Assembly (NCBI GenBank): GCA_951812745.1
Contig: OX638327.1
Span: 434,001-498,000, forward strand
Direction: 5' to 3'
Source: an uncultured Nitrospirales bacterium
GTDB taxonomy: Bacteria > Nitrospirota > Nitrospiria > Nitrospirales > UBA8639
DNA: 64,000 bases
A model generated the notes under the pieces. The model was not told the DNA's origin, searched no databases, and saw nothing but the letters and a program-made list of their open reading frames with translations. Of the stretch, positions 42,616-55,497 are shown piece by piece. The position numbers and the translations under genes are program-made. The number at the start of each line of letters is the position of its first letter. The stretch's first letter is position 1.

Positions 42616-43704
42616 ATGTTGCATCGACTCGCGCTCCGAGTGATTCCCCAACTGAATGAGGCTGTCACTGAAGCCGACGTTCGAAAGCGGAAGCGTTGGG
42701 TGATGCTTCTTCCGGGGTTCGTGGCGTTTATCCTCTACCGTCTCTCAAAAGACGTTCTTCCGCTATCGGACCCGATGGCGTTGTTGGCGATGAGCGGGGT
42801 CCTTGCGACGCTCACCGCGTATTGGGCGTACGCGAAGGGACGTCAGCAGACGCTTGCCCAGGTTTGCCAAACCGATGGTCCCGGCCGCCTTCTCTGGGTG
42901 GGTGGATGGATCGGGTTTGTTTACGGCGTGCAGCTTTCGTTGTTGGTGTTGGCGATCCTGGCCCTCTTTGCCAATTACAATTTTCTGCTTCATCCCGACG
43001 GGCCGGCTATGATGGCCCTGATTATTCCCTGTACGGCGGTCACCCGGGACGCTTTTGAAATCGGACACGTGGTCCGCATGGAATCCCAGGGCGTGCGCCT
43101 GGTGACTTTTCCCGACGGCCGGTCGTTTCGCGAATTACTCCAGCGTGACTTTTTACATCTGGCCCGATGGGTGGGAGCGGGGTTGGTTGCCGGTGGTACG
43201 ACGGCGGTCGTGTTTCGACTCGGCTGGACCGGCGACGGAAGTGATGTCGGACAGGCGATTCTGATTTGTGTCGTGGCGGCGTGTTTCGCTCACGGAGCTT
43301 TTCTGTCCGGAAAATGTCCTCTGGAAGATTTCTCGGACCGCTTCAAAATACCATCATGGTGGGAAGCTTGCCGGTTTTGGCTGTGGCCCTGTTTGACTTT
43401 TGCGTTTACATACTATTTAGTGCAATTTGGCCTCATTGCGTTTGTGTTGCAGGTTGAGGAGGTGCCCCTGTTCGTTCATTTGGCCGTTGGTGGAGTGACG
43501 ACGGGGATGATGGCGGGGTATGGCTACTTTTTAGGCGCGCGGGTTTTTGTAGAAGCGCAAACGCAGGGCGGATTCTCCGAGGGTTTGAGACGTTGTCCGT
43601 TCGTAATGGAAATTTTGGCCAAAACCGGGTGGGTGACATCGGGACCCAAGCCAAGCCCCGTTGAAATCAGGCAGGCAGAGCCCTCCCGAGACATGCTTCC
43701 ATGA
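42616..43704 (+). CDS. Hypothetical polytopic membrane protein
   Basis: The product is 362 aa with about eight membrane helices. Soluble parts include DGRSFRELLQRDF and KCPLEDFSDRFKIPSWWEA. I do not recognise a family. Its TGA overlaps the ATG of the bd-like oxidase gene (ATGA), so it is translated together with it, which suggests a part of, or an assembly factor for, that complex. Confidence 0.7.
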   Translation: MLHRLALRVIPQLNEAVTEADVRKRKRWVMLLPGFVAFILYRLSKDVLPLSDPMALLAMSGVLATLTAYWAYAKGRQQTLAQVCQTDGPGRLLWVGGWIGFVYGVQLSLLVLAILALFANYNFLLHPDGPAMMALIIPCTAVTRDAFEIGHVVRMESQGVRLVTFPDGRSFRELLQRDFLHLARWVGAGLVAGGTTAVVFRLGWTGDGSDVGQAILICVVAACFAHGAFLSGKCPLEDFSDRFKIPSWWEACRFWLWPCLTFAFTYYLVQFGLIAFVLQVEEVPLFVHLAVGGVTTGMMAGYGYFLGARVFVEAQTQGGFSEGLRRCPFVMEILAKTGWVTSGPKPSPVEIRQAEPSRDMLP

Positions 43705-45557
43705 AATTGTCCATTTTCCTGTTGTGCGTTCTGGGCTGTTCACTGCTCGCGCCAATGCCGGGGTGGGCCGGTCCGGATACACCTTCCCTTACTGAGGACG
43801 TCTATTATAAGACCGGCGGAATCCCTCAAGGCCCTCCGGCCGCGGAAACCGGAGCCACTTACCCCCACTGGCAACCGCTCAATAACCGGATCATCATCTG
43901 GCTCGTCACACAGCAGCATACCTATTTCGGCGGATTCGTTCTTGCCCTGCCGTTGTTTGCGTTTCTCCTGGAATTCTTAGGCCTGACCCGTCGTGACCCG
44001 CAGGCAGCCAAACGCTACGATGTACTCGGTCGCGATATTCTTCGCGTCGGGGTCCTCTCGCTCTCGGTCACGGCGCTGCTTGGCAGTGTCATGCTTGGCG
44101 CCTTTGTGACGTTCTATCCCGCTTTTATGAAATACATGGGATCGACGTTTAAGCAGATGATGCCGTTGTATGCCTCGGTGTTTTTAGGTGAATCCTTTCT
44201 CCTGGTCTTGTACTACTACAGTTGGGACCGTCTGGCCCGGGGCGCCGGGAAATGGGTGCATCTGTCGATCGGGGTCGTCGCGAATGCCATGGGTGTGCTG
44301 TTGCTCCTGTTGGCCAACTCATGGGCGTCTTTTATGATGGCGCCTGCAGGGGTGAATGCCGAGGGCCAGTTCCTGGGGAACGTCTGGCATTTATTGCATT
44401 CGCCGTTATGGAATCCGCTCAATGCCCATCGGTTCCTTGCGGACATCATGTCCGGGGGCGCCGTGGTCGTGGCCTATGCGGCGTATCGGTATTTGAAGAC
44501 CCGGGTCCAGGAGGAACGGGCGTATTACGATTGGGTGGGCTACGTGTTCATTGTCGTGGTGGTGTGCGCCTTGCTCCCCATGCCTTTTGCCGGGTATTGG
44601 CTAATGCGCTCCGTGTTTGAGTTCCGTCAGGAGATGGGTATGACCATGATGGGCGGGTTGTTGTCCTGGCTGTTCGTGGTTCAAGCCACTACCATCGGCG
44701 CACTGTTTCTCGGCATCAACTATTACATCTGGCAGTCCCTGGGACGGCTGCGTGACGGAGAACGGTATCATCCCTATTTCAAATTCATCCTCGGGGGGCT
44801 GATGGTGGCGTTTCTGGTCTGGTTCACTCCTCATACCATTGCCATGACCCCCAGCGAAATGAAAGCCATGGGCGCGGCGCAACATCCCGTCATCGGGCAA
44901 TTCGGGGTGATGTCCGCCAAGAACGGCGCCATTAATATCATGATCTGTCTGACGGCCTTGAGCTACCTGTTGTATCGGCGCGCCAATCGGATCATTACCG
45001 TCCCGTGGGCTGCGGTGGGTAACGTCGCGATCGGGGTCTTGTTCATCGCGGGCATGGCCAATATCGTATGGGTCGCGATTTACGGGTTTTTTATTCCCGC
45101 CCATATCCGGGTGGGTTTGTCCATTCCACAGGGGGCGACTACGGCGACGGTTCTGCTCGGAGGGTTGGTGATCAACCATTTTCTGTTGAAGGGGAGCGAA
45201 CTCCGAGGTCCCATCCAATGGGGCAGGATCTCCGTTCGAGGGATGGTGGCGTTGTTCGGGGTGGCCGCGACTTTTTCCTGGGTGATGGGGTTGATGGGCT
45301 ATATCCGGTCAGCCGGGCGGTTGGGGTGGCACGTGAATGAACTGATGGCGGATCTGTCCCCTTGGGCTTTTACCCCTCCCATTACTTTTGCCGCCAAAAT
45401 GGTGACGATCAACATGGTGTTGTTCTGGGTTTCGGTGTTTTTCATGTTTTGGTTGGCCACCCGGGACAAACAGCCGGCCCTCGTGGATCAGGATGCCCCG
45501 GCCGAAACCGGAAACGTCTCTTTCGTGCAGGCGTTCTCAAGAGAGGAGTCGGCATGA
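43701..45557 (+). CDS. Cytochrome bd-like oxidase subunit, paralogue 1
   Basis: The product is 618 aa with a signal peptide (LCVLGCSLLAPMPGWA) and about 14 membrane helices. A DVYYKTGG motif follows the signal. Histidines conserved with the protein at 49222 lie in QQHTYFGGFV, SPLWNPLNAHRFL, TPHTIAMTP, AQHPVIGQFGVMSAKNG and WHVNELM. It resembles CydA of cytochrome bd, but it is longer and has an exported N-terminus, as in the bd-like oxidases described in Nitrospira genomes. The expected role is terminal electron acceptance (O2 or another small oxidant) at the periplasmic face. No CydB is adjacent. Confidence 0.8.
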   Translation: MKLSIFLLCVLGCSLLAPMPGWAGPDTPSLTEDVYYKTGGIPQGPPAAETGATYPHWQPLNNRIIIWLVTQQHTYFGGFVLALPLFAFLLEFLGLTRRDPQAAKRYDVLGRDILRVGVLSLSVTALLGSVMLGAFVTFYPAFMKYMGSTFKQMMPLYASVFLGESFLLVLYYYSWDRLARGAGKWVHLSIGVVANAMGVLLLLLANSWASFMMAPAGVNAEGQFLGNVWHLLHSPLWNPLNAHRFLADIMSGGAVVVAYAAYRYLKTRVQEERAYYDWVGYVFIVVVVCALLPMPFAGYWLMRSVFEFRQEMGMTMMGGLLSWLFVVQATTIGALFLGINYYIWQSLGRLRDGERYHPYFKFILGGLMVAFLVWFTPHTIAMTPSEMKAMGAAQHPVIGQFGVMSAKNGAINIMICLTALSYLLYRRANRIITVPWAAVGNVAIGVLFIAGMANIVWVAIYGFFIPAHIRVGLSIPQGATTATVLLGGLVINHFLLKGSELRGPIQWGRISVRGMVALFGVAATFSWVMGLMGYIRSAGRLGWHVNELMADLSPWAFTPPITFAAKMVTINMVLFWVSVFFMFWLATRDKQPALVDQDAPAETGNVSFVQAFSREESA

Positions 45558-46245: not shown

Positions 46246-46581
46246 ATGATAGACGTGCTTCTCGGCGTGGCGGTCATGGGGACGGTCGGGGTGCTCATTG
46301 GAATCCTCCTGGGCGACTCTTTTCTGTATTTTGCCGCGGGGCTGGGGGTCATGTTAGGGATCGGGATCGGCCTCATTGGCGGGCGGCGGTTTTTTTTCGG
46401 AATTTTTGTCGGAACGGTTTTAGGGGGGCTGCTGGCCTGGGGCGTTTCCGGCCCTGAAAACATTACGGTCGGCGCGGGGTCCGGCGCGGCGATGGGCGGA
46501 TTTTTGGGGATTTGGGTCTCGATGTTGATTGACGTGTTTTGGCGGAAACAGGTGGAGGCCTCTTCCGACCACGAAGGGTAG
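46246..46581 (+). CDS. Small glycine-rich membrane protein
   Basis: The product is 111 aa from the ATG at 46246 (AAGGGAA upstream). Three to four glycine-rich membrane segments (for example [14 protein letters not shown] and [14 protein letters not shown]) fill most of it. I do not recognise the family. It is in line with the DUF3047 gene and the FGE-like genes. Confidence 0.6.
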
Positions 46582-46637
46582 CGCCTGGACAGGAAGAGCG
46601 GGCGGTTGAACCCATATCGGGCATAGGAATCAGAATC

Positions 46638-47552
46638 ATGGAAAATCGCGGGGTGCTTATCGGCTCCATCATCTTTGTCTTTGCCTCGTTTATCTTGATG
46701 ATGGTCATGCTGATCTACGAAACGTACAAGGGGAAACAGGAGTTGGACCGGCTGGTTTCGAACTCGCAAACGGCCAAACCTCGGGTCATCACTCCGGTGA
46801 AAGTCAAGGATTTTTCGATGTATCGTACACTGGTCGGCGATGAAGGCCGTGAGATGGTCGAAATTCCCGAAGGGCCTTTTACCATGGGGCATGATCAGGA
46901 GGATCCCGATGAAGCCCCTGCGCATCCGGTGTACGTGCGGACGTACTTTATCGATCTGAAGGAAGTCACCCAGTCGGAATATGCGCGTTTTGTCAAGATG
47001 ACCAAGCGTGCGCAACCCCAGGTGCCGGTCTTTGAAGAAGACATTGCCAAACTCGTCGACCCGGATTTTCCCGTCGTAGGCATTGGCTGGAATGATGCCT
47101 TTGCCTATTGCCGGTGGGCGGGAAAGCGGTTGCCGACCGAAGCTGAATGGGAGAAGGCCGCTCGCGGTGAAGGCCGACGACTCTATCCTTGGGGGAATGA
47201 GTTCAGCTATATGGTTTCCAATATTGACGGGGAGGACGATGGGTTCAAGTATTTGTCGCCCGTGGGCTCTTTTGAAGGCGGGCGGAGTCCGTATGGGGTC
47301 TACGACATGACGGGAAACGTTGCCGAATGGGTTGCGGATACCTATGACCCTCAATATTATCAAAATTCACCATTTCGTGATCCTCCCGGTCCGGACAGTA
47401 CGGAATTTAAAGTCATTCGAGGAGGAACTTGGCGTGATTCCAAACTCAACGCGAGATTGACCAAACGGTTTTCAGCCAAAATGTGGCGAACCGACGCGAC
47501 GATCGGGTTTCGTTGCGCCAAAGACGTCGAGGCCGTCAAACAAGTATCCTGA
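46638..47552 (+). CDS. Membrane-anchored FGE-sulfatase-fold (SUMF1-like) protein 1
   Basis: The product is 304 aa from the ATG at 46638. One N-terminal helix (VLIGSIIFVFASFILMMVML) anchors an FGE/SUMF1-fold domain: VEIPEGPFTMG, KRLPTEAEWEKAARG, GVYDMTGNVAEWVADTY and a final TIGFRCA. True formylglycine-generating enzymes need a cysteine pair in the last third; here that region (GGTWRDSKLNARLTKRFS) has none. It is therefore a structural or binding member of the fold. A second copy of the type follows. Confidence 0.85.
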   Translation: MENRGVLIGSIIFVFASFILMMVMLIYETYKGKQELDRLVSNSQTAKPRVITPVKVKDFSMYRTLVGDEGREMVEIPEGPFTMGHDQEDPDEAPAHPVYVRTYFIDLKEVTQSEYARFVKMTKRAQPQVPVFEEDIAKLVDPDFPVVGIGWNDAFAYCRWAGKRLPTEAEWEKAARGEGRRLYPWGNEFSYMVSNIDGEDDGFKYLSPVGSFEGGRSPYGVYDMTGNVAEWVADTYDPQYYQNSPFRDPPGPDSTEFKVIRGGTWRDSKLNARLTKRFSAKMWRTDATIGFRCAKDVEAVKQVS

Positions 47553-47588: not shown

Positions 47589-48500
47589 ATGGATGGGAGA
47601 TTGAAACTGATCCTGCTTGCCGTGATTGTATTCATGGTAGGCATGCCGGTATCGGGCATTTTGCGTGGGACCAAATCTCCTCCCCCTGATCCCGAACTTG
47701 CGGAGGTTGTCGAATCCGTTCCGGCGACCGGGTCTTCTCCCTCCGCCCCACCCCAGCCGATCATCCAAGAAGAAATGGTGTTTATTCCTTCCGGGCAGTT
47801 TATTCAGGGGACCAGCCAGGGCGGGTTTAATGAACGTCCCGAACGTCTCGTGACGCTTGAGGGATTTTGGATTGATCGGTATGAGGTGACGAACCACCAC
47901 TATCTCGCCTTCGTGGAGCAGACCGGGCATCGAAAACCAGGCCCCCCGTCCCGCTATGCCAAACGGCTAGCCCAATTGCGTGGGCCCAATCAGCCTGTTG
48001 CCTATGTCTCCTGGTATGATGCCGATGCCTATTGCAGATGGAAAGGAAAACGTCTGCCCAAGGAAGCCGAATGGGAAAAGGCGATGCGAGGGATAGACGG
48101 CCGGTTGTGGCCCTGGGGAAACTCTCCGAGAATCCACAAGGCCAATCTGGGAGGGCGAGAAGATGGATATGAAGCCACGGCCTCCGTTGGCTCGTTCCCA
48201 TTGGATAGAAGCCCTTTCGGGGTGCATGACGGTTTTGGAAACCTGATGGAATGGGCCGACAATTGGTATGAAGAGCAAACTCGCCATCACAGTGAACCCG
48301 GAGAGGCGAATTTTGCCGATCGTGGGGGGTACAAGACTCTTCGGGGTGCCGGGTATACCAGCCATGGAAGCGACTTGAGGATTACGGCTAGAAATTTTAT
48401 GGTTCCCGATTTTCGGGATGAAACCATAGGCTTTCGTTGTGCCGCTGCGTCAGAGCGGAAGACCCCGGACCGCACGCTGGCCGCTGGTCCCCAGGATTAG
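47589..48500 (+). CDS. Membrane-anchored FGE-sulfatase-fold (SUMF1-like) protein 2
   Basis: The product is 303 aa. An N-terminal helix (LILLAVIVFMVGMPVSGIL) is followed by a proline-rich linker and the FGE-like domain: VFIPSGQFIQGTSQGG, FWIDRYEVTN, KRLPKEAEWEKAMRG, FGVHDGFGNLMEWADNWY and TIGFRCA. The catalytic cysteine pair of true FGE is absent. It is 36 nt after its paralogue on the same strand, and the two may form a heterodimer on the periplasmic side. The last part of the operon is unknown. Confidence 0.85.
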   Translation: MDGRLKLILLAVIVFMVGMPVSGILRGTKSPPPDPELAEVVESVPATGSSPSAPPQPIIQEEMVFIPSGQFIQGTSQGGFNERPERLVTLEGFWIDRYEVTNHHYLAFVEQTGHRKPGPPSRYAKRLAQLRGPNQPVAYVSWYDADAYCRWKGKRLPKEAEWEKAMRGIDGRLWPWGNSPRIHKANLGGREDGYEATASVGSFPLDRSPFGVHDGFGNLMEWADNWYEEQTRHHSEPGEANFADRGGYKTLRGAGYTSHGSDLRITARNFMVPDFRDETIGFRCAAASERKTPDRTLAAGPQD

Positions 48501-48652: not shown

Positions 48653-48769
48653 CTAGAGAAAGTCAAAGTAATACAGGATCAAAAAGACGGCTAAAAGAAT
48701 GTTGACAACCATTCCGGCCAACACTATAATGTCGAACAATTTTGCATTATTGCGCATGTGTTTTACCAT
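48653..48769 (-). CDS. Possible 38-aa single-helix miniprotein
   Basis: A minus-strand frame encodes a basic start (MVKHMRNNAKLFD) and one membrane helix (IIVLAGMVVNILLAVFLILY) ending near FDFL. It lies just upstream of, and divergent to, the bd-like oxidase operon. Ribosome-binding evidence is weak, and an upstream ATG at 48841 is possible. The call rests on the protein-like hydrophobic pattern only. Confidence 0.4.
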   Translation of the reverse strand: MVKHMRNNAKLFDIIVLAGMVVNILLAVFLILYYFDFL

Positions 48770-48822
48770 CTTCAGGAAAAGATGTGTGTTCAGTATCACA
48801 TCGTGGAGAAATGTGTCAAGCG

Positions 48823-48828
48823 TATAAT
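48823..48828 (+). promoter_or_regulatory. Putative -10 box of the bd-like oxidase operon
   Basis: A perfect TATAAT lies 34 nt before the ATG at 48863, in an AT-rich stretch. The bases 17 nt upstream do not match a -35 box, so an activator or another sigma factor may be needed. Confidence 0.45.
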
Positions 48829-48862
48829 TTATTAAGGTCAAACATTTAGAGGGAAGATTAAG

Positions 48863-48976
48863 ATGGCGAAAACTGATCCATTTCCAATCAAGCTGGGCAA
48901 AGGGATATTCTATGTGACCTGTGCCCTAAGTTTGTGGTTTTTTTATTGGCTTGCCGGCATCCAATGTCCTTGTTGA
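48863..48976 (+). CDS. 37-aa single-helix miniprotein upstream of the bd-like oxidase
   Basis: The frame encodes MAKTDPFPIKLGKGIFYVTC and following residues, with one tryptophan-rich membrane helix (LSLWFFYWLAGI) and a cysteine-containing end (QCPC). GGGAAG lies before the ATG. It is too short for usual gene finders. Position at the head of the oxidase operon recalls small subunits of bd oxidases (CydX/CydS), although no sequence similarity is claimed. Confidence 0.65.
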   Translation: MAKTDPFPIKLGKGIFYVTCALSLWFFYWLAGIQCPC

Positions 48977-49011
48977 AAAAAGGAACTGAGAGATAAACAG
49001 GAGGTTTTCAT

Positions 49012-49128
49012 ATGCAGACGGCTCTGTACCTCATCATTTCGATCGTGATTTCCGTGGCATATTTTCAGTTCATCGACTGGGCTCTGATGGATATGCAGGG
49101 CTTGGATTATTTCTATATTCTGAGGTGA
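49012..49128 (+). CDS. 38-aa single-helix miniprotein upstream of the bd-like oxidase
   Basis: The product begins MQTALYLIISIVISVAYFQF, a membrane helix followed by a short acidic-aromatic tail (IDWALMDMQGLDYFYILR). A perfect AGGAGG lies 6 nt before the ATG, strong evidence for translation. It sits between the 37-aa miniprotein and the oxidase gene, 93 nt before the latter's start. A role as a small oxidase subunit is inferred from position. Confidence 0.75.
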   Translation: MQTALYLIISIVISVAYFQFIDWALMDMQGLDYFYILR

Positions 49129-49221
49129 GAAACATCATTATCAGCAGTCATCCTGAAAAACTGGACAACTATAAAGGTTTATTGTTCTTTGAATAATTTC
49201 AAAGAAAGAAGGAGGTTGGTC

Positions 49222-51183
49222 ATGGGTCGCCTCAAAAGTAGACAGGCCGGGAAGAAATTCCTGGCAGTCACTGGTCTTTTTGCAATGGGAGTCATGCTGT
49301 TACTCCCGATTTTTGTGGCACTGCCGGCCTTGGCCGGGGGTGCTCCCGCAGCAGGTGGGCCGCCTCCCGATGTCGTGGCCGCCCAAGAAGCCGAAGGGGT
49401 GGAAGGCGAAGAAGTAAAGGTCGAAATCGGGAGAGACGTCTACTACAAAACAGAGGGCCCTGCCGTCGGTGCGCCGGCTCCAAAGACTGCCGATACGGAA
49501 GAATTTTATCCGCGATATAACTTCGAAAGCCGGGTCCTTCTTTGGGTGGCCAATCAGCAGCATCTGTACTATGGTAGCTTTGTGTTGGCCGTGCCGATCT
49601 TCTGTATGTGTATCGAGTTTGCCGGGTTGGTGAGCAAAGACAAGGCGATGGCGAAGAAGTATGACCAATTGGCATATGACTTTGTTAAAATCAGCCTGAC
49701 CGCCTACTCGCTGACTGCCATCCTCGGTGGTATTCTCATCTTTACGTTCCTGACGTTGTATCCTGCCTTCTTTGGGTACCTTTCCAGCATTTTCCGCCCC
49801 GTGATGCATATCTATGCCTTGATGTTCGTGGCGGAAAGCGGAACCCTCTACATCTATTATTATGGATGGGACAAGATGAAAGATGGGTTGTTGAAATGGC
49901 TCCATTGCAGCATGTCGGTGGTGTTGAACGTCATTGGGACGGTGTTGATGTTCCTGGCCAATTCCTGGATTGGCTTTATGATGTCGCCCGCAGGCGTGGA
50001 TGAGCAGGGACGCTATCTGGGAAATATTTGGCATGTCATCCATACGGCGCTCTGGAATCCTCTGAACGTGCATCGGATTCTTGGGAATATGGCCTTTGGT
50101 GGTGGCGTGGTGGCGGCGTATGCTGCGTATCGGTTCCTGTCGGCAAAGAACGATGAAGAGCGTGCCCATTTCGATTGGATGGGATATATCGCGATGTCGC
50201 TGGGCGTGGCCTTCCTGATCCCCCTGCCGTTCGCCGGCTATTGGCTCATGCGCGAGGTGTATGCGTACCGTCAGCAAATGGGAATTACCTTGATGGGCGG
50301 GCTGTTGGCTTGGTTGTTCATCATTCAGGCCACCATGATCGGCATCCTGTTTTTGACGACGAACTATTATCTCTGGCAAGCCCTCGGAAGAATGACCGGG
50401 GGAGAGAGGTTCCAGCGGTATATCAAGTATTTTGTGTTCATTTTAGTCGTCGGACTGTTGGTCTTTATCACTCCCCATACCATCGTGATGACTCCGGCTG
50501 AATTAAAGGCCATGGGAGGCCAGCAGCATCCGGTGTTAGGGAACTATGGCGTGATGTCGGCTAAAAATGGGGGGATTAACGCGATTATCATGACCACGAT
50601 CGCCAGTTTTATATGGTATCAGCGTGGCAATAGAGTGCCGGCGGTGAAGTGGGCAAAATTCGGAAATATCTTCCTGATCACCTTCTTCGTGGTGGCCCAT
50701 CTGAATAACATTTGGGTGGCCTGTTACGGGTATTTCATCCCGGCGAACGTTCGAATCGGCCTCTCTGTTCCGCAGGTGGCCGGAACGCTTTCGTGCTTAT
50801 TTTTCGGATCGGCGTTAAATCTGGCGATGTTGAGTAAGTCCAGGGAACTCGGACCGATTCGATGGGGTCAGATCGCGCCACGTTCACAGTATGCCCTGAT
50901 TATGTTGGCAACGGCCTTTACGTGGATGATGGGATTGATGGGGTATATCCGGTCATCGGTGAGGTTGTTCTGGCACGTCAATGAGATTATGCGGGACAAT
51001 TCGCCTTGGGCGTATACGCATACCATTGGGTTTGGGGCGAATGTGATCTCCTTTAACGTGTTGTTCTTCTGGATTACGATTCTGTTTGTCTTTTGGCTTG
51101 GAGCGCTGGGTGCCAAGAAAGCGCCCGTGCCCGCGACGCAACCCGTTCCGGGTGCCGCGCCGCAACCTGCAACTGGTCATTAA
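49222..51183 (+). CDS. Cytochrome bd-like oxidase subunit, paralogue 2
   Basis: The product is 653 aa. The ATG at 49222 has AAGGAGG upstream and is preferred to the TTG at 49189. A signal peptide (FAMGVMLLLPIFVALPALA) is followed by a DVYYKTEG motif and about 14 helices. It is collinear with the protein at 43701, sharing the histidines in QQHLYYGSFV, LWNPLNVHRIL, TPHTIVMTP, QQHPVLGNYGVMSAKNG and WHVNEIM. It adds a Pro/Ala-rich tail. It is the core of an operon with miniproteins and cytochromes c. The expected job is reducing O2 (or another acceptor) with electrons from periplasmic cytochrome; the acceptor is not proven. Confidence 0.82.
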   Translation: MGRLKSRQAGKKFLAVTGLFAMGVMLLLPIFVALPALAGGAPAAGGPPPDVVAAQEAEGVEGEEVKVEIGRDVYYKTEGPAVGAPAPKTADTEEFYPRYNFESRVLLWVANQQHLYYGSFVLAVPIFCMCIEFAGLVSKDKAMAKKYDQLAYDFVKISLTAYSLTAILGGILIFTFLTLYPAFFGYLSSIFRPVMHIYALMFVAESGTLYIYYYGWDKMKDGLLKWLHCSMSVVLNVIGTVLMFLANSWIGFMMSPAGVDEQGRYLGNIWHVIHTALWNPLNVHRILGNMAFGGGVVAAYAAYRFLSAKNDEERAHFDWMGYIAMSLGVAFLIPLPFAGYWLMREVYAYRQQMGITLMGGLLAWLFIIQATMIGILFLTTNYYLWQALGRMTGGERFQRYIKYFVFILVVGLLVFITPHTIVMTPAELKAMGGQQHPVLGNYGVMSAKNGGINAIIMTTIASFIWYQRGNRVPAVKWAKFGNIFLITFFVVAHLNNIWVACYGYFIPANVRIGLSVPQVAGTLSCLFFGSALNLAMLSKSRELGPIRWGQIAPRSQYALIMLATAFTWMMGLMGYIRSSVRLFWHVNEIMRDNSPWAYTHTIGFGANVISFNVLFFWITILFVFWLGALGAKKAPVPATQPVPGAAPQPATGH

Positions 51184-51211
51184 TCATTAACTTTGCATGA
51201 AATACGTAATG

Positions 51212-51248
51212 TGAGGCTATCCTGAACGTAACAGTCAGGGTAGCCTCA
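51212..51248 (+). other. Intra-operon hairpin
   Basis: TGAGGCTATCCTGA pairs with TCAGGGTAGCCTCA across a 9-nt loop, directly before the ribosome site of the cytochrome c gene. It lacks a long T run, so it is probably a processing, attenuation or stability element that sets oxidase-to-cytochrome expression rather than a full terminator. Confidence 0.6.
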
Positions 51249-51264
51249 TTTGTGGAGGGGCAAG

Positions 51265-52581
51265 GTGGTTGAATTAATTACGGAAGCGATCTCGATTGGA
51301 TGGCCGGCATTCGCCTTTTTGCTAGGGCTTTTGGTGTATTTTCAGGCGAAATTGACCGACCCGGTTCAAAAGAGAAATGTCACGTTTAAGACGTTTATCG
51401 GTATGCTGTGCGCGTTCATGGCCTTTATGGCCATTGCGAATTACAAGAATAATTTCTACGGGGAAAGCCGTCTGCTGCCCGTCTCATTGGTGATGATTAC
51501 CTGTTTGGCCTACATTATGGGTATTTACTTCACCAATATCGGGGCCCTGATGAAAATTGGCGGGTTCATGTTTTTCGTGGCTGCGGCGCTGTCCGGGTAT
51601 GGCAATTGGTTGCCTCAGGTAGAAGGAGGATTCCCTCCCCCAGAGGTGAAGTTGGACTTCCAGAGTATGACTCCTCAGCAACTGGGCGATGAGGGTGAAA
51701 AAATCATTTTTGGCGGTCTTGGCCAAAGTAAGGTCCAGGGGGCTATCGGGAAGGGCCAATGTCCCTTGTGCCATGGGTTCAATCAGGGATTCCTGAGTGA
51801 ACGGGCTCCGAATCTTTGGGACATTCCGGCCCGGGCGGAAGAACGGTTGAAGCACGAAAAATATCATATGAACGATCCTGCTTCACGGGATACGGTGCAA
51901 AAAGAGTCGTTTGAGGGATCGGGGACAGCCACGACCGGGCAGGAATATATCGCCGAGTCACATGCCTGTCCGAATTGTTTCGTCGTGCCGGGATTCGGCG
52001 TGAAAGGAACAAACGACACGGAAAGCCCCATGCCCAGAATTCACAAGCCGCCGATTTCACTGACCCTTGGAGAATTGGCCGCGGTGGATACCTGGCTGTA
52101 CGTTCGTGAAGGGAAGGAAGCACCGACGTACGAGGAAATTCAAGCGTCGTATGAAAAATTCATTCCTGAAGGAGACCGACCTCAGGCAAGTTCCGGGGAT
52201 GAAGCCGCAGCAGGCGGCGTGCTGGCTACCGGTGAGGAGCCTATTACGGATCTCTTCATGAAAGCGGGTTGCCCTGCCTGTCATACGATTCCCGGCATAG
52301 AAGGAGCAACCGGAAAAGTAGGGCCTTTGTTGATGGAAGGGAGTAATGCTCCGCAACGGTTGAAGGATCCGGGGTATAACGGACATGCGACGTCGACCCG
52401 TGAATACATCACCGAGTCGATTTTAAATCCCAGCATGTACGTGGTGAAGGATTTTCCTGACAATCAGATGCCGAAAGATTTCGGGCAAAAACTCAGTGCA
52501 GGGGCCGTCAATAAAATCGTGGATTATCTGTCCAGTTTGAAAGAGGGACAGGATCTGCCTTCGATAGAAGATTTCAATTAA
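51265..52581 (+). CDS. Membrane-anchored diheme cytochrome c
   Basis: The product is 438 aa from a GTG at 51265 with GGAGG 6 nt upstream. Four N-terminal helices are followed by two c-type cytochrome domains with heme sites CPLCH (166-170) and CPACH (336-340). Each domain later has a Met-ligand-like MP motif (SPMPRIHKPP; NQMPKDFG). A CPNCF pair at 235-239 is in the first domain's loop, not a heme site. It probably feeds electrons to the bd-like protein encoded just upstream. Confidence 0.85.
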   Translation: MVELITEAISIGWPAFAFLLGLLVYFQAKLTDPVQKRNVTFKTFIGMLCAFMAFMAIANYKNNFYGESRLLPVSLVMITCLAYIMGIYFTNIGALMKIGGFMFFVAAALSGYGNWLPQVEGGFPPPEVKLDFQSMTPQQLGDEGEKIIFGGLGQSKVQGAIGKGQCPLCHGFNQGFLSERAPNLWDIPARAEERLKHEKYHMNDPASRDTVQKESFEGSGTATTGQEYIAESHACPNCFVVPGFGVKGTNDTESPMPRIHKPPISLTLGELAAVDTWLYVREGKEAPTYEEIQASYEKFIPEGDRPQASSGDEAAAGGVLATGEEPITDLFMKAGCPACHTIPGIEGATGKVGPLLMEGSNAPQRLKDPGYNGHATSTREYITESILNPSMYVVKDFPDNQMPKDFGQKLSAGAVNKIVDYLSSLKEGQDLPSIEDFN

Positions 52582-52621
52582 TCCTTAAACTCTGTCATTC
52601 AGAAAACGGGAGTTTAATACG

Positions 52622-53587
52622 ATGACCTGGTTAAAGTTAGTCGAAGGCTACATGCCGATGCAGATGATTTCGGAGTTGGCCGGTTCGATTTTGGTGTTTG
52701 CGTTGGTGAATTGGGCGCTGAATCGGGCGGGCATGGGGATTCCCAAGTTCTGGGCCGGAGTCGGGGTGTGGATCTACATCCAGCTCTATCTGAAGTACCG
52801 TATTTATCCGCCAATCCCGTTTAGTGTGCGGGCCATCTACGGCACAGTGTCGGGGTGTGGGATATTCATGTGGGTGTCCGGCTCGGAAGGCGAGTGGCAG
52901 GAGTTCAAGCGGCCGATTCTCAACGTGATGGATGGGATCAGCGGCTTTCACAAGGGCATGCGCACGGCGGCGTTAATCGTGATTCCCTTGGCGTTGGGGG
53001 GCTTTGCCTACAGTTCGTTCTTGCCCAGTTTTGAAGAACCGATCGAGTTGCGTACGGTGCATCCGGCGCCGCCGGCGACCACGAAAGTGCACGGCAGGAC
53101 CTTTGTGCTGCAAGTGGTGGAGAATCCCTATCGGGTGAACAACGATGGCAAGTACGACCAGGCGTTTACGGATGCGCGGATCGTGGAGCAGGCCATGGGG
53201 CGGTTGATGAAGGACGTGAACGACCCAAACTACAATCCCTGGGATCCCAATGCGGAGGGCTACATCAAATACGTGCGGGAAGGCGGCGAGATCTTTTTTC
53301 AGAACTGCCACTTCTGTCACGGAGACAATTTGAATGGCCGGGGGCTGTGGGCCTATGCGTTCAACCCCATTCCGGCGAATTTCACGGACGCGGGCACGAT
53401 TGCGCAGTTACAAGAGACGTTTGTGTTCTGGCGGGTGTCGAAAGGTGGGATCGGGCTGCCGGGCGAAGGATTCCCCTGGGCTTCGGTCATGCCGCCGTGG
53501 GAGCAGCACCTGACCGTAGACGAAATCTGGAAAGTGGTGATGTTTGAATACTGGCACACGGGCTACTATCCCCGGACCTGGGATTAA
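52622..53587 (+). CDS. Membrane-anchored monoheme cytochrome c
   Basis: The product is 321 aa. N-terminal and middle helices (about residues 20-36, 42-57, 71-86 and 115-131) anchor a C-terminal cytochrome c domain with one heme site (CHFCH, 229-233), followed by FPWASVMPPWEQHLTVDEIW containing the Met ligand. It is next to the diheme cytochrome gene and the NxrC-like gene. It likely links them to the oxidase. From about here the operon becomes more GC-rich. Confidence 0.85.
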   Translation: MTWLKLVEGYMPMQMISELAGSILVFALVNWALNRAGMGIPKFWAGVGVWIYIQLYLKYRIYPPIPFSVRAIYGTVSGCGIFMWVSGSEGEWQEFKRPILNVMDGISGFHKGMRTAALIVIPLALGGFAYSSFLPSFEEPIELRTVHPAPPATTKVHGRTFVLQVVENPYRVNNDGKYDQAFTDARIVEQAMGRLMKDVNDPNYNPWDPNAEGYIKYVREGGEIFFQNCHFCHGDNLNGRGLWAYAFNPIPANFTDAGTIAQLQETFVFWRVSKGGIGLPGEGFPWASVMPPWEQHLTVDEIWKVVMFEYWHTGYYPRTWD

Positions 53588-53610
53588 GAGGAGAGGAGCG
53601 GAGACGACCC

Positions 53611-55437
53611 ATGAGCAAGAGCAGATATGGAATCAACGTCGCCCGGTTGGGCGTGTGCCTTAGCCTCAGTGTCCTGCTGGGGTTGGGGTTGCCCCTGAGC
53701 AGCGGTGCGCAGGAGGACCTCCCGGAAGGCTTCAAGCAGCAGGGCTTACCAGCGCCCTTGCCGGCTGAGCAGATCGAAGCGGGCAAGCGGGTCTACTTTA
53801 CCAAATGCGTGTGGTGTCACGGGGTGGAAGGGGCCGGGGACGGCCCGGGGGCGGTACGGCTCTGGCCGCGGCCGCGGAACTTCAACGCCGGCACCTTCAA
53901 GATCCGGCACACGGCCAGCGGGCAATTACCGCTGATCGACCTGGACCTCTTGCAAACCGTCACGCACGGGCTGCCGGGGTCGGCGATGCCGTCGTGGGAA
54001 GGCATTCTCACGGAGCAGCAACGCAAGGACGTGCTGGCGTTCGTGACCTCGCAATTGGTGCAGGACCGGTCGTGGCAAGACGAAGAATTTGAAGAATTTT
54101 TCGTGCTGGAGCTGGATCAACTCGCCCCGAAAGAAGGCACACCGGAGTCCATCAAGCGGGGCTCGGAATTGGTGGTGGAGAAGAAATGCATCGAGTGTCA
54201 CGGGCTGGAAGGCCGGGGTGACGGGAACGCGTTCAACCTGAAGGACGATTGGGGCTTCAGCATTCAACCGGCGGACTGGCACAAATGCTGGAACTTCCGG
54301 GGCAGCCGGCAAGATCCGTACAATGTGAAGAACATTTTCCGTACCTTCTCCACGGGACTGAACGGCACCCCGATGCCGTCGTTCGCGGACAACACGAGTG
54401 TGGACGAACGGTGGGACATCGCCAACTACGTCAACTCGCTGTGTGAGCGGGAGCAGGAGATCAAAGCGCCGCAAGGCACGGTGACCGACGAGATCGCGCT
54501 TACCTTCTCGACCTCGCAGCCGCTGGGGATCGATCCTTTAACGGACAAGCCCAAGAGTAACTTTGTGGTTCCATCGAAATTCGTGGAAGGTGACCTCCCC
54601 ACGGACGAACACGACGAGCGCTGGAACCTGATTCCGCGGCGGTGGATCGCCATGGGCGGGCAGATTACGCATAAGCCGAGGAACTTCGTGAACCGCATTG
54701 ACGATATGTGGGTGCGAGCGTTGTATAACGAAACGCACATCGAGTTCATGTTCCGGTGGGACGACCGGACCAAGAGCATTCAAGAGGATGAAGTGGACTG
54801 GGATCCCACGGAAGTGAACCTGGAGGATTATGGGGTGGAAGAACAAGCGCCGCAAGGCACGACGTTTGAAGAAGACCCCTTCCATCAGGAGTCGATTGCG
54901 GCCAAGCAAAAAGACGGGTATGCGGTGTACAACGACGGAGTGGCCTTCCAATTTCCCATCAAATGGCAGGAACTACCGGCGCCCAGGAAGCCACGGTATT
55001 TCTGGGGGGACGAAAGATTTGCCGCCGACATTACCAAATGGACGGCGGATGGGACCCTAGGGGTGTACGAAGGCACGGGCTGGGATGAAGACTTCACCGA
55101 AGTCGACTTTCAGGAGGAAGTCGAAGTGGTGAAAGCCGAGTGGGCCAACGGGCAGTGGACGGTGATCGTCAAGCGACCCTTGAAGGGGGACTACGACGAA
55201 GTCGCGTACCTGGAGCAGGGCAAATACATCCCGATGGTCTTCTTTGCCTGGGACGGGCACAACGGGGACGTGGGCCGGAAGATGGCGGTGTCCGCGTTCT
55301 ATTACCTGGTGATGGAACCCCCGATTCCGATGAGCACGTACATCTATCCGGGGCTGATTACCGTCGGCATCGTGATTATTGAAGGTTGGGTGTTAGGGCG
55401 GCGCGCCAACCGGCGCAAGGCCAAGGGCCACGCCTGA
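53611..55437 (+). CDS. Diheme cytochrome c with ethylbenzene-dehydrogenase-like (NxrC-like) domain
   Basis: The product is 608 aa with a signal peptide (CLSLSVLLGLGLPLSSGAQ). Two cytochrome c domains carry CVWCH (66-70) and CIECH (193-197). Residues about 310-570 are an ethylbenzene dehydrogenase-like heme-binding fold (RWIAMGGQITHKP, VRALYNETHIEFMFRWDD, AFQFPIKWQE, VFFAWDGHNGD), as in NXR gamma subunits. A C-terminal helix (YPGLITVGIVIIEGWVLG) anchors it. It closes the operon. It is probably the electron-entry module from nitrite oxidoreductase or another periplasmic enzyme; this is inference. Confidence 0.85.
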   Translation: MSKSRYGINVARLGVCLSLSVLLGLGLPLSSGAQEDLPEGFKQQGLPAPLPAEQIEAGKRVYFTKCVWCHGVEGAGDGPGAVRLWPRPRNFNAGTFKIRHTASGQLPLIDLDLLQTVTHGLPGSAMPSWEGILTEQQRKDVLAFVTSQLVQDRSWQDEEFEEFFVLELDQLAPKEGTPESIKRGSELVVEKKCIECHGLEGRGDGNAFNLKDDWGFSIQPADWHKCWNFRGSRQDPYNVKNIFRTFSTGLNGTPMPSFADNTSVDERWDIANYVNSLCEREQEIKAPQGTVTDEIALTFSTSQPLGIDPLTDKPKSNFVVPSKFVEGDLPTDEHDERWNLIPRRWIAMGGQITHKPRNFVNRIDDMWVRALYNETHIEFMFRWDDRTKSIQEDEVDWDPTEVNLEDYGVEEQAPQGTTFEEDPFHQESIAAKQKDGYAVYNDGVAFQFPIKWQELPAPRKPRYFWGDERFAADITKWTADGTLGVYEGTGWDEDFTEVDFQEEVEVVKAEWANGQWTVIVKRPLKGDYDEVAYLEQGKYIPMVFFAWDGHNGDVGRKMAVSAFYYLVMEPPIPMSTYIYPGLITVGIVIIEGWVLGRRANRRKAKGHA

Positions 55438-55464
55438 CGCCGACGCGCCAGATATGCTACGGAA

Positions 55465-55497
55465 GGGGGGTGGAACGCAATCCACCCCCCTTTTTTT
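55465..55497 (+). terminator. Rho-independent terminator of the oxidase operon
   Basis: GGGGGGTGGA pairs perfectly with TCCACCCCCC across a 6-nt loop and is followed by TTTTTTT. It is the strongest terminator in the window. Confidence 0.95.

Follow-up and report, generated by a model that had tools for sequence, protein, structure and literature searches.

A conserved cytochrome bd-family operon of Nitrospirales with upstream microprotein genes, and its occurrence in relatives without NxrA

Introduction

The division of electrons between O2 and the quinone pool in nitrite oxidisers is an old question, and the terminal oxidase of most Nitrospira is uncharacterised. In Nitrospira moscoviensis, the bd-like_3/alt_NxrC_2 cluster comprises four large genes, which are among the 40 most transcribed genes of that organism; the same study suggests anchoring of nitrite oxidoreductase (NXR) and reverse electron flow, together with a supercomplex for a paralogous region, so that an NXR-interacting complex has already been put forward in print (PMC6606698). 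The cluster is reported as conserved among Nitrospina, Nitrospira and Kuenenia (PMC3578206), and kustd1712–1709 of Kuenenia stuttgartiensis are listed as a cydA-like, a diheme, a monoheme and a diheme gene (PMC6423088). TO_1, a complex that combines a bd-like protein and a periplasmic cytochrome b, has been described in the manganese-oxidising Candidatus Manganitrophaceae and other Troglogloeales (PMC9040806). Here we analyse the corresponding operon, with genes in the same order as in N. moscoviensis and Kuenenia, in an uncultured Nitrospirales bacterium (UBA8639; assembly GCA_951812745.1, contig OX638327.1). The stretch analysed, called the window below, is 64,000 nucleotides long and corresponds to C1:434001–498000 of a genome that consists of one contig (C1) of 2,346,994 bases. 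Identities to the N. moscoviensis locus (L088) are 79% for bd3, 70% for cyt2h, 71% for cyt1h and 65% for alt_NxrC_2.

Results

Organisation and conservation of the operon

Four large genes (bd3, cyt2h, cyt1h and alt_NxrC_2) and the two microprotein genes that precede them (s1 and s2) are well supported as a single operon, predicted to extend from about position 48737 to 55494 (Table 1). Intergenic gaps measure 23–93 bases, and one conserved promoter lies ahead of the genes; its score is 12/12 in all 63 scorable loci, compared with a best score of 10/12 among 315 shuffles. Downstream of the last gene, 70 of 80 sequences (the window and 79 loci) have a terminator-like site, as opposed to 1 of 237 mononucleotide shuffles. 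The six genes are found in the order s1, s2, bd3, cyt2h, cyt1h, alt_NxrC_2 in 63 of 80 related loci that were taken with their flanks, the set to which all locus counts out of 80 refer; 16 of the other 17 loci open at a point within the unit, and the last, L092, is a second, incomplete copy. This class-wide conservation of gene order fits the prediction of one complex, and the gene products likely form a single physical assembly, judging from the arrangement of their genes.

An earlier note on the window, made from its letters alone, had described four genes at 49222–55437 as one operon with one strong terminator. The open reading frames and domains are present where it placed them, and the terminator has a stem of 14 pairs. 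The single unit is likewise upheld by the gaps, promoter and terminator, although its true start had been missed, with the promoter, s1 and s2 all lying further upstream.

An Rfam scan of the operon leader returned no match, and a riboswitch or other RNA element was rejected as an explanation for the conserved block in the leader, which is the antisense gene s0. Two peculiarities were seen among the related loci: L096 has a partial bd3 match only, and in genome G010 cyt1h and alt_NxrC lie on a stretch of 2,891 bases that occurs twice (L092 and L125); the copies are 100% identical and about 0.65 Mb apart, one of them without bd3 in front.

Table 1 Features of the operon and its surroundings, in positions of the window.
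Feature	Position	Strand	Remarks
bd3, CydA-like, 653 aa	49222-51183	+	PF01654, E 7e-20
cyt2h, membrane cytochrome c	51250-52581	+	TTG start, uncertain; Cytochrom_C over cut-off
cyt1h, membrane cytochrome c	52622-53587	+	Cytochrom_C over cut-off
alt_NxrC_2, diheme/EB_dh	53611-55437	+	PF09459, E 4e-14; Cytochrom_C over cut-off
Intrinsic terminator closing the unit	55461-55494	+	14-pair stem
Sigma-70 promoter TTGACA-17-TATAAT, 12/12	48702-48730	+	Upstream of operon, inside s0
s1, 37 aa, one membrane helix, C-terminal Cys-Pro-Cys (MAKTDPFPIKLGKGIFYVTCALSLWFFYWLAGIQCPC)	48863-48976	+	Open reading frame with good ribosome site
s2, 38 aa, one membrane helix, conserved QGLD (MQTALYLIISIVISVAYFQFIDWALMDMQGLDYFYILR)	49012-49128	+	Open reading frame with good ribosome site
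s0, 34 aa, one membrane helix (MRNNAKLFDIIVLAGMVVNILLAVFLILYYFDFL)	48653-48757	-	Divergent to operon; coding sequence holds operon promoter
Promoter-like site TTGACA-16-GATACT for s0	48792-48819	-	Predicted from sequence
bd4, CydA-like paralogue, 49% identical to bd3	43701-45557	+	Separate unit; context
Two FGE-sulfatase-domain proteins	46539-47552, 47589-48500	+	PF03781; context

Occurrence in relatives without NxrA

Since NxrA is encoded elsewhere in the host genome (1145 aa, C1:2,331,216–2,334,650; 1545 bits to 7b04_B, the Kuenenia NXR subunit A), the host is likely a nitrite oxidiser; a 429-aa open reading frame after nxrA is putatively NxrB. We searched for NxrA in 47 genomes and detected it in 29 of 32 belonging to families f1–f3 (some as fragments), in none of four belonging to f4, and, at more than 30 bits, in none of 11 from other families of the class. 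Absence is read here from draft genomes, whose incompleteness matters, as three of the 32 genomes from nitrite-oxidiser families (G022, G040 and G054) also gave no NxrA match. In f4 and the other families, 15 genomes have no NxrA-level match. A bd3-like protein of at least 800 bits is carried by 13 of these; of the remaining two, G277 has a bd3-like gene cut by a contig end, and G041 has a bd3 fragment only, yet s1 and s2 are present. Among 14 NXR-less loci that were read, 11 show bd3, cyt2h, cyt1h and alt_NxrC in order, and so does L154, in which bd3 is truncated; L153 breaks off behind bd3, and L155 has no recognisable bd3.

Because the operon is kept in Nitrospiria that lack NxrA, the unit cannot be specific to NXR and its electron donor cannot always be NXR; by the same distribution, the unit does not need NXR and goes back to the ancestor of the class. 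That NxrA-less genomes carry orthologous operons also indicates that alt_NxrC_2 does not depend on a catalytic NxrA in the same organism. The literature ties bd-like_3/alt_NxrC_2 to nitrite oxidation, and the NXR-less Nitrospiria that carry the unit argue for a broader role. These results bear on a docking function that has been proposed for alt_NxrC_2 (PMC6606698), according to which the unit would be a membrane anchor or hub that holds soluble NXR and delivers electrons to any nearby acceptor, with bd3 as no catalytic end point. The NxrC-like domain of alt_NxrC_2 and its C-terminal membrane helix would suit such a function, but docking of NXR cannot be the whole role of a unit whose bd3-like protein is held by 13 of 15 NxrA-less genomes, and the strict conservation of charged and ligand-type residues in bd3 is also difficult to reconcile with a passive anchor. 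We consider this explanation improbable.

The microproteins s1 and s2

The microprotein gene s1 was found in 63 of 80 loci and in 108 of 117 Nitrospirales genomes, three of these genome matches being weak (E about 1e-3, family f4), and s2 was found in 64 of 80 loci and 107 of 117 genomes. Genomes in which one or the other was missed are G060 and G099 (99% complete) and G081, G089, G093 and G100, together with G018, G034 and G047, which have contig breaks. A wider survey of 245 genomes across the phylum recovered s2 in 78, all of one class and four of them outside the order. Both s1 and s2 evolve as proteins under selection, as judged from their substitutions (dN/dS of 0.096 and 0.094, with differences mostly at codon position 3). 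In the deeper NXR-less families, the place of s2 is held in L148, L151 and L153 by a small membrane open reading frame with a QNLxxPYK-like tail instead of QGLD.

Neither s1 nor s2 is near the cut-off of any Pfam or NCBIfam family, including CydX, and homology to CydX was accordingly rejected; a paper on CydX conservation confines CydX in Nitrospirae to Leptospirillum. The three small genes, s0 included, are unmentioned in the accessible parts of the literature searched, which consisted of open-licence PMC papers, and s1 and s2 may be annotated elsewhere as hypothetical proteins.

All 64 Nitrospirales sequences of s1 carry the C-terminal CPC motif, which closes the protein in 63 and is followed by one more residue in the other, and it also occurs in s1 of family f2 (L141). 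All seven NxrA-less genomes with an s1 candidate lack the motif, and at least five of these ends carry His; for L143 and L144, position alone was the basis for assigning s1. This association of CPC with NXR stands for at least one evolutionary transition, not for many, and possibly for a single one; it is a lead rather than proof of function. The connection between the motif and NXR can be tested directly. The possibility that s1 holds an FGE target site was considered and rejected, as s1 has CPC and no R, whereas the FGE target motif is CxPxR.

The promoter inside s0

The operon promoter lies within the coding sequence of s0, which was found in 62 of 80 loci (E<1e-4); 17 of the 18 misses are loci that begin too late, and the other is L092. 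No Pfam family is near its cut-off for s0, whose dN/dS is 0.096 with differences concentrated at codon position 3. Conservation around the promoter follows a three-base rhythm. The wobble bases of s0 are invariant at 4 of 4 sites inside the promoter hexamers versus 2 of 24 outside them, a pattern with a chance of approximately 7 in 10,000 by a hand calculation in which invariant sites are placed at random. Both the s0 peptide and the operon promoter therefore appear to be selected. Reading the conserved block as a plus-strand open reading frame (MLTTIPANTI...) was rejected, given that the positions that vary in it are wobble positions when read in the minus frame. In 62 of 63 loci the promoter-like site of s0 retains TTGACA together with at least 3 of 6 positions of its second hexamer, a count made without a shuffle control. 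In several NXR-less loci s0 is located elsewhere, near the FGE-like genes, which shows that it is an independent gene.

The place of s0 between or behind FGE-like genes in NXR-less relatives would be in keeping with s0, s1 and s2 as regulators or stress peptides outside the complex that only share its transcription. For s1 and s2 the positional evidence points the other way: every one of the 63 loci with s1 has both genes ahead of bd3, and, where recognised in NXR-less loci, they sit immediately upstream of bd3. We therefore regard a role for all three outside the complex as doubtful. If the microproteins are instead missing subunits, for which they are candidates, a purification that ignores them, or proteomics blind to membrane peptides of 37 residues, could fail.

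The CydA-like core and the oxidase question

An AlphaFold2 model of bd3 (mean pLDDT 71) has 7oy2_C as its best Foldseek match, and in VIA comparisons it reaches Z 32.4 to 7ose_A (355 residues at 3.8 Å) and Z 27–32 to ten CydA chains. The next matches after CydA are chains of alternative complex III (6btm_F, Z 20.6; 6f0k_C, Z 17.0), a role that has been suggested for this protein (Luecker et al. 2013, PMC3578206); we set it aside, as canonical CydA may pair with these chains likewise. Heme-copper oxidase chains (ba3/cbb3) give a Z of about 6–7, within noise for helical proteins; the fold lends no support to a reading of bd3 as a heme-copper oxidase, and absence from such a list of matches is no argument against it either. 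The quinol-oxidase signature GRxPW, whose canonical form in cytochrome bd is GRQPW, is absent from all 34 aligned rows.

One explanation for the operon as a whole is that it encodes a terminal oxidase, in which electrons from NXR would pass through alt_NxrC_2 and the cytochromes to bd3 for the reduction of O2. The complete host genome contains no match to PF00115 (COX1) and none to PF02322 (CydB), and hence O2 reduction, if the host respires O2, falls to one of the four bd-like proteins that match PF01654. In addition to its CydA fold, bd3 keeps heme-ligand candidates: His114 and Glu205 correspond to E. coli H19 and E107 (by hhalign, covering the first 160 CydA residues), and His284 and Met445 correspond to H186 and M393 by MAFFT alignment alone. 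In published work, too, the oxidase of Nitrospirales is likely to be OR-N CydAA′, although the proteins named there are OR-N1 and OR-N2 (PMC12342949). Against this, two His columns of the paralogue bd2 are replaced in bd3, one by Gln435, invariant over 31 rows, and the other by Phe583, which 24 of the 31 rows share (six have His and one Tyr). This Gln/Phe variant has been noted before (PMC8026999). The anaerobic anammox organism Kuenenia, moreover, has an equal gene order. An oxidase is thus a possible but tentative reading of the unit.

Cytochromes and alt_NxrC_2

The number of CxxCH motifs is two in cyt2h, one in cyt1h and two in alt_NxrC_2, and hydropathy indicates four hydrophobic segments in cyt2h, two in cyt1h and, in alt_NxrC_2, one N-terminal and one C-terminal segment, the latter a membrane helix. 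At residue 240 cyt2h has a further CxxC, with F or Y in the place of the His, and all 29 orthologues examined share it. This site may bind an additional covalent heme, the third of the protein, through a ligand other than His, or may be a disulfide or metal site. The protein also matches 7zs1_A, an entry for Kustd1711 (E 8e-8), the hemes of which are near +350 mV (PMC11791136). Residues 50–281 of alt_NxrC_2 match 6h5l_B, the diheme subunit of a Kuenenia HAO-like complex (E 1.6e-45), and the best Foldseek matches of its EB_dh part are 2ivf_C (EBDH gamma) and 7b04_O/C (Kuenenia NXR), with 6h5l_B recovered by fold as well. Its score to TIGR03477 is 62.6 bits, under the curated cut-off of 169.85. 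Together with the family and fold of bd3, these results agree with the earlier description of the large genes as a bd-like protein, two membrane-anchored cytochromes c and an NxrC-like diheme protein with an ethylbenzene-dehydrogenase-like fold.

Paralogues and neighbouring genes

An operon of equivalent order is present elsewhere in the host genome at C1:70,693–74,903 (L123:14694–18904), where it encodes bd2, two cytochromes c and alt_NxrC_1, and the existence of this paralogous set argues that the four-part layout is itself selected. bd3 and bd2 are 41% identical; cyt1h matches the second cytochrome with E 3e-42, and the matches of cyt2h (1e-6) and alt_NxrC (3e-6) are weak. More His residues are found in bd2 than in bd3, including the two columns altered in bd3, and this operon is likely the counterpart of the published bd-like_2 terminal-oxidase region. 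Its alt_NxrC_1 is without heme c, and the operon has bd1 and a gene pair for a Rieske protein and cytochrome b in its vicinity.

The second FGE-domain gene in Table 1 is beside the unit in 62 of 80 loci. Membrane-anchored proteins with this domain adjoin the unit across the class and, by eye, seem to be without the catalytic Cys pair of true FGE. Elsewhere, two NxrC genes (L122:7395–8348 and L124:8462–9478) encode proteins that look identical over their shared length, and the one in L124 stands alone, far from nxrA.

Discussion

The best overall explanation of these results, to which we assign a probability of roughly 45%, is that the operon encodes a single complex that directs electrons to quinone by reverse flow. 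As a member of the cytochrome bd superfamily, this electron-transfer complex would be membrane-bound and linked to cytochrome c, and would consist of s1, s2, the bd3 core, cyt2h, cyt1h and alt_NxrC_2. Its donor would be periplasmic and of high potential, namely NXR in nitrite oxidisers and others in NXR-less relatives, and electrons may pass from this donor to the hemes of alt_NxrC_2, then to the c hemes of the two cytochromes, and on to the b hemes of bd3. The acceptor would be the quinone pool rather than O2, reached uphill at the expense of the proton motive force for CO2 fixation, and s1 and s2 may serve bd3 as small subunits comparable to CydX or as assembly factors. We lean toward quinone and reverse flow because the unit is retained in an anaerobe and because the paralogous operon of this genome is the more oxidase-like of the two. 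The absence of GRxPW, the high-potential hemes of Kustd1711 and the published proposal of reverse flow are also in its favour.

Several observations weigh against this interpretation, however. In a genome without COX1 and CydB, bd3 is one of four possible O2 reducers, and it retains the four heme-ligand candidates described above. Moreover, the canonical quinol residues are missing (Luecker et al. 2013, PMC3578206), no quinone site was identified, and co-transcription is no proof of a complex. The earlier note had proposed a single supercomplex that passes electrons to an oxidase; one unit with class-wide gene order fits the complex, and we rank the oxidase end second, as a prospect that is open to some doubt. 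We would also suggest, more speculatively, that the unit represents a bd-family complex of a class not described so far, in which microproteins are obligate subunits, in which the periplasmic CPC of s1, serving a metal or redox function, came with NXR-based nitrite oxidation, and in which the bases shared by the promoter and s0 couple s0 expression to the complex.

Comparison with known systems

The closest described system is that of N. moscoviensis, which also has a second bd-like paralogue (bd-like_4) nearby, as bd4 is here. Its description, in the part available, does not include s0, s1, s2 or the promoter, whereas the DNA of L088 has all four. For Kuenenia, cyt2h is homologous to Kustd1711, and kustd1709, 1710 and 1712 are likened by listed gene order alone; kustd1709–1712 lie within the Kuenenia nxr cluster, whereas nxrA is distant here, at C1:2.33 Mb. 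TO_1 shares a bd-like protein and a periplasmic cytochrome b, outside nitrite oxidisers, and may correspond to the bd3 operon or to its paralogue. Canonical cytochrome bd, with CydX or CydH, has in common the CydA fold and single-helix microproteins in the operon, but the unit described here has no CydB and no GRxPW, and its microproteins are unrelated by Pfam and NCBIfam. alt_NxrC_2 shares the EB_dh domain fold with gamma subunits of the type II DMSO-reductase family (NxrC, EbdC), but it has an extra diheme N-terminus like that of 6h5l_B and a membrane anchor, and it is not in the nxrAB operon. The four-gene cluster is thus already known, and what is new is the microproteins, the promoter that overlaps s0, and the distribution of the unit among relatives without NXR.

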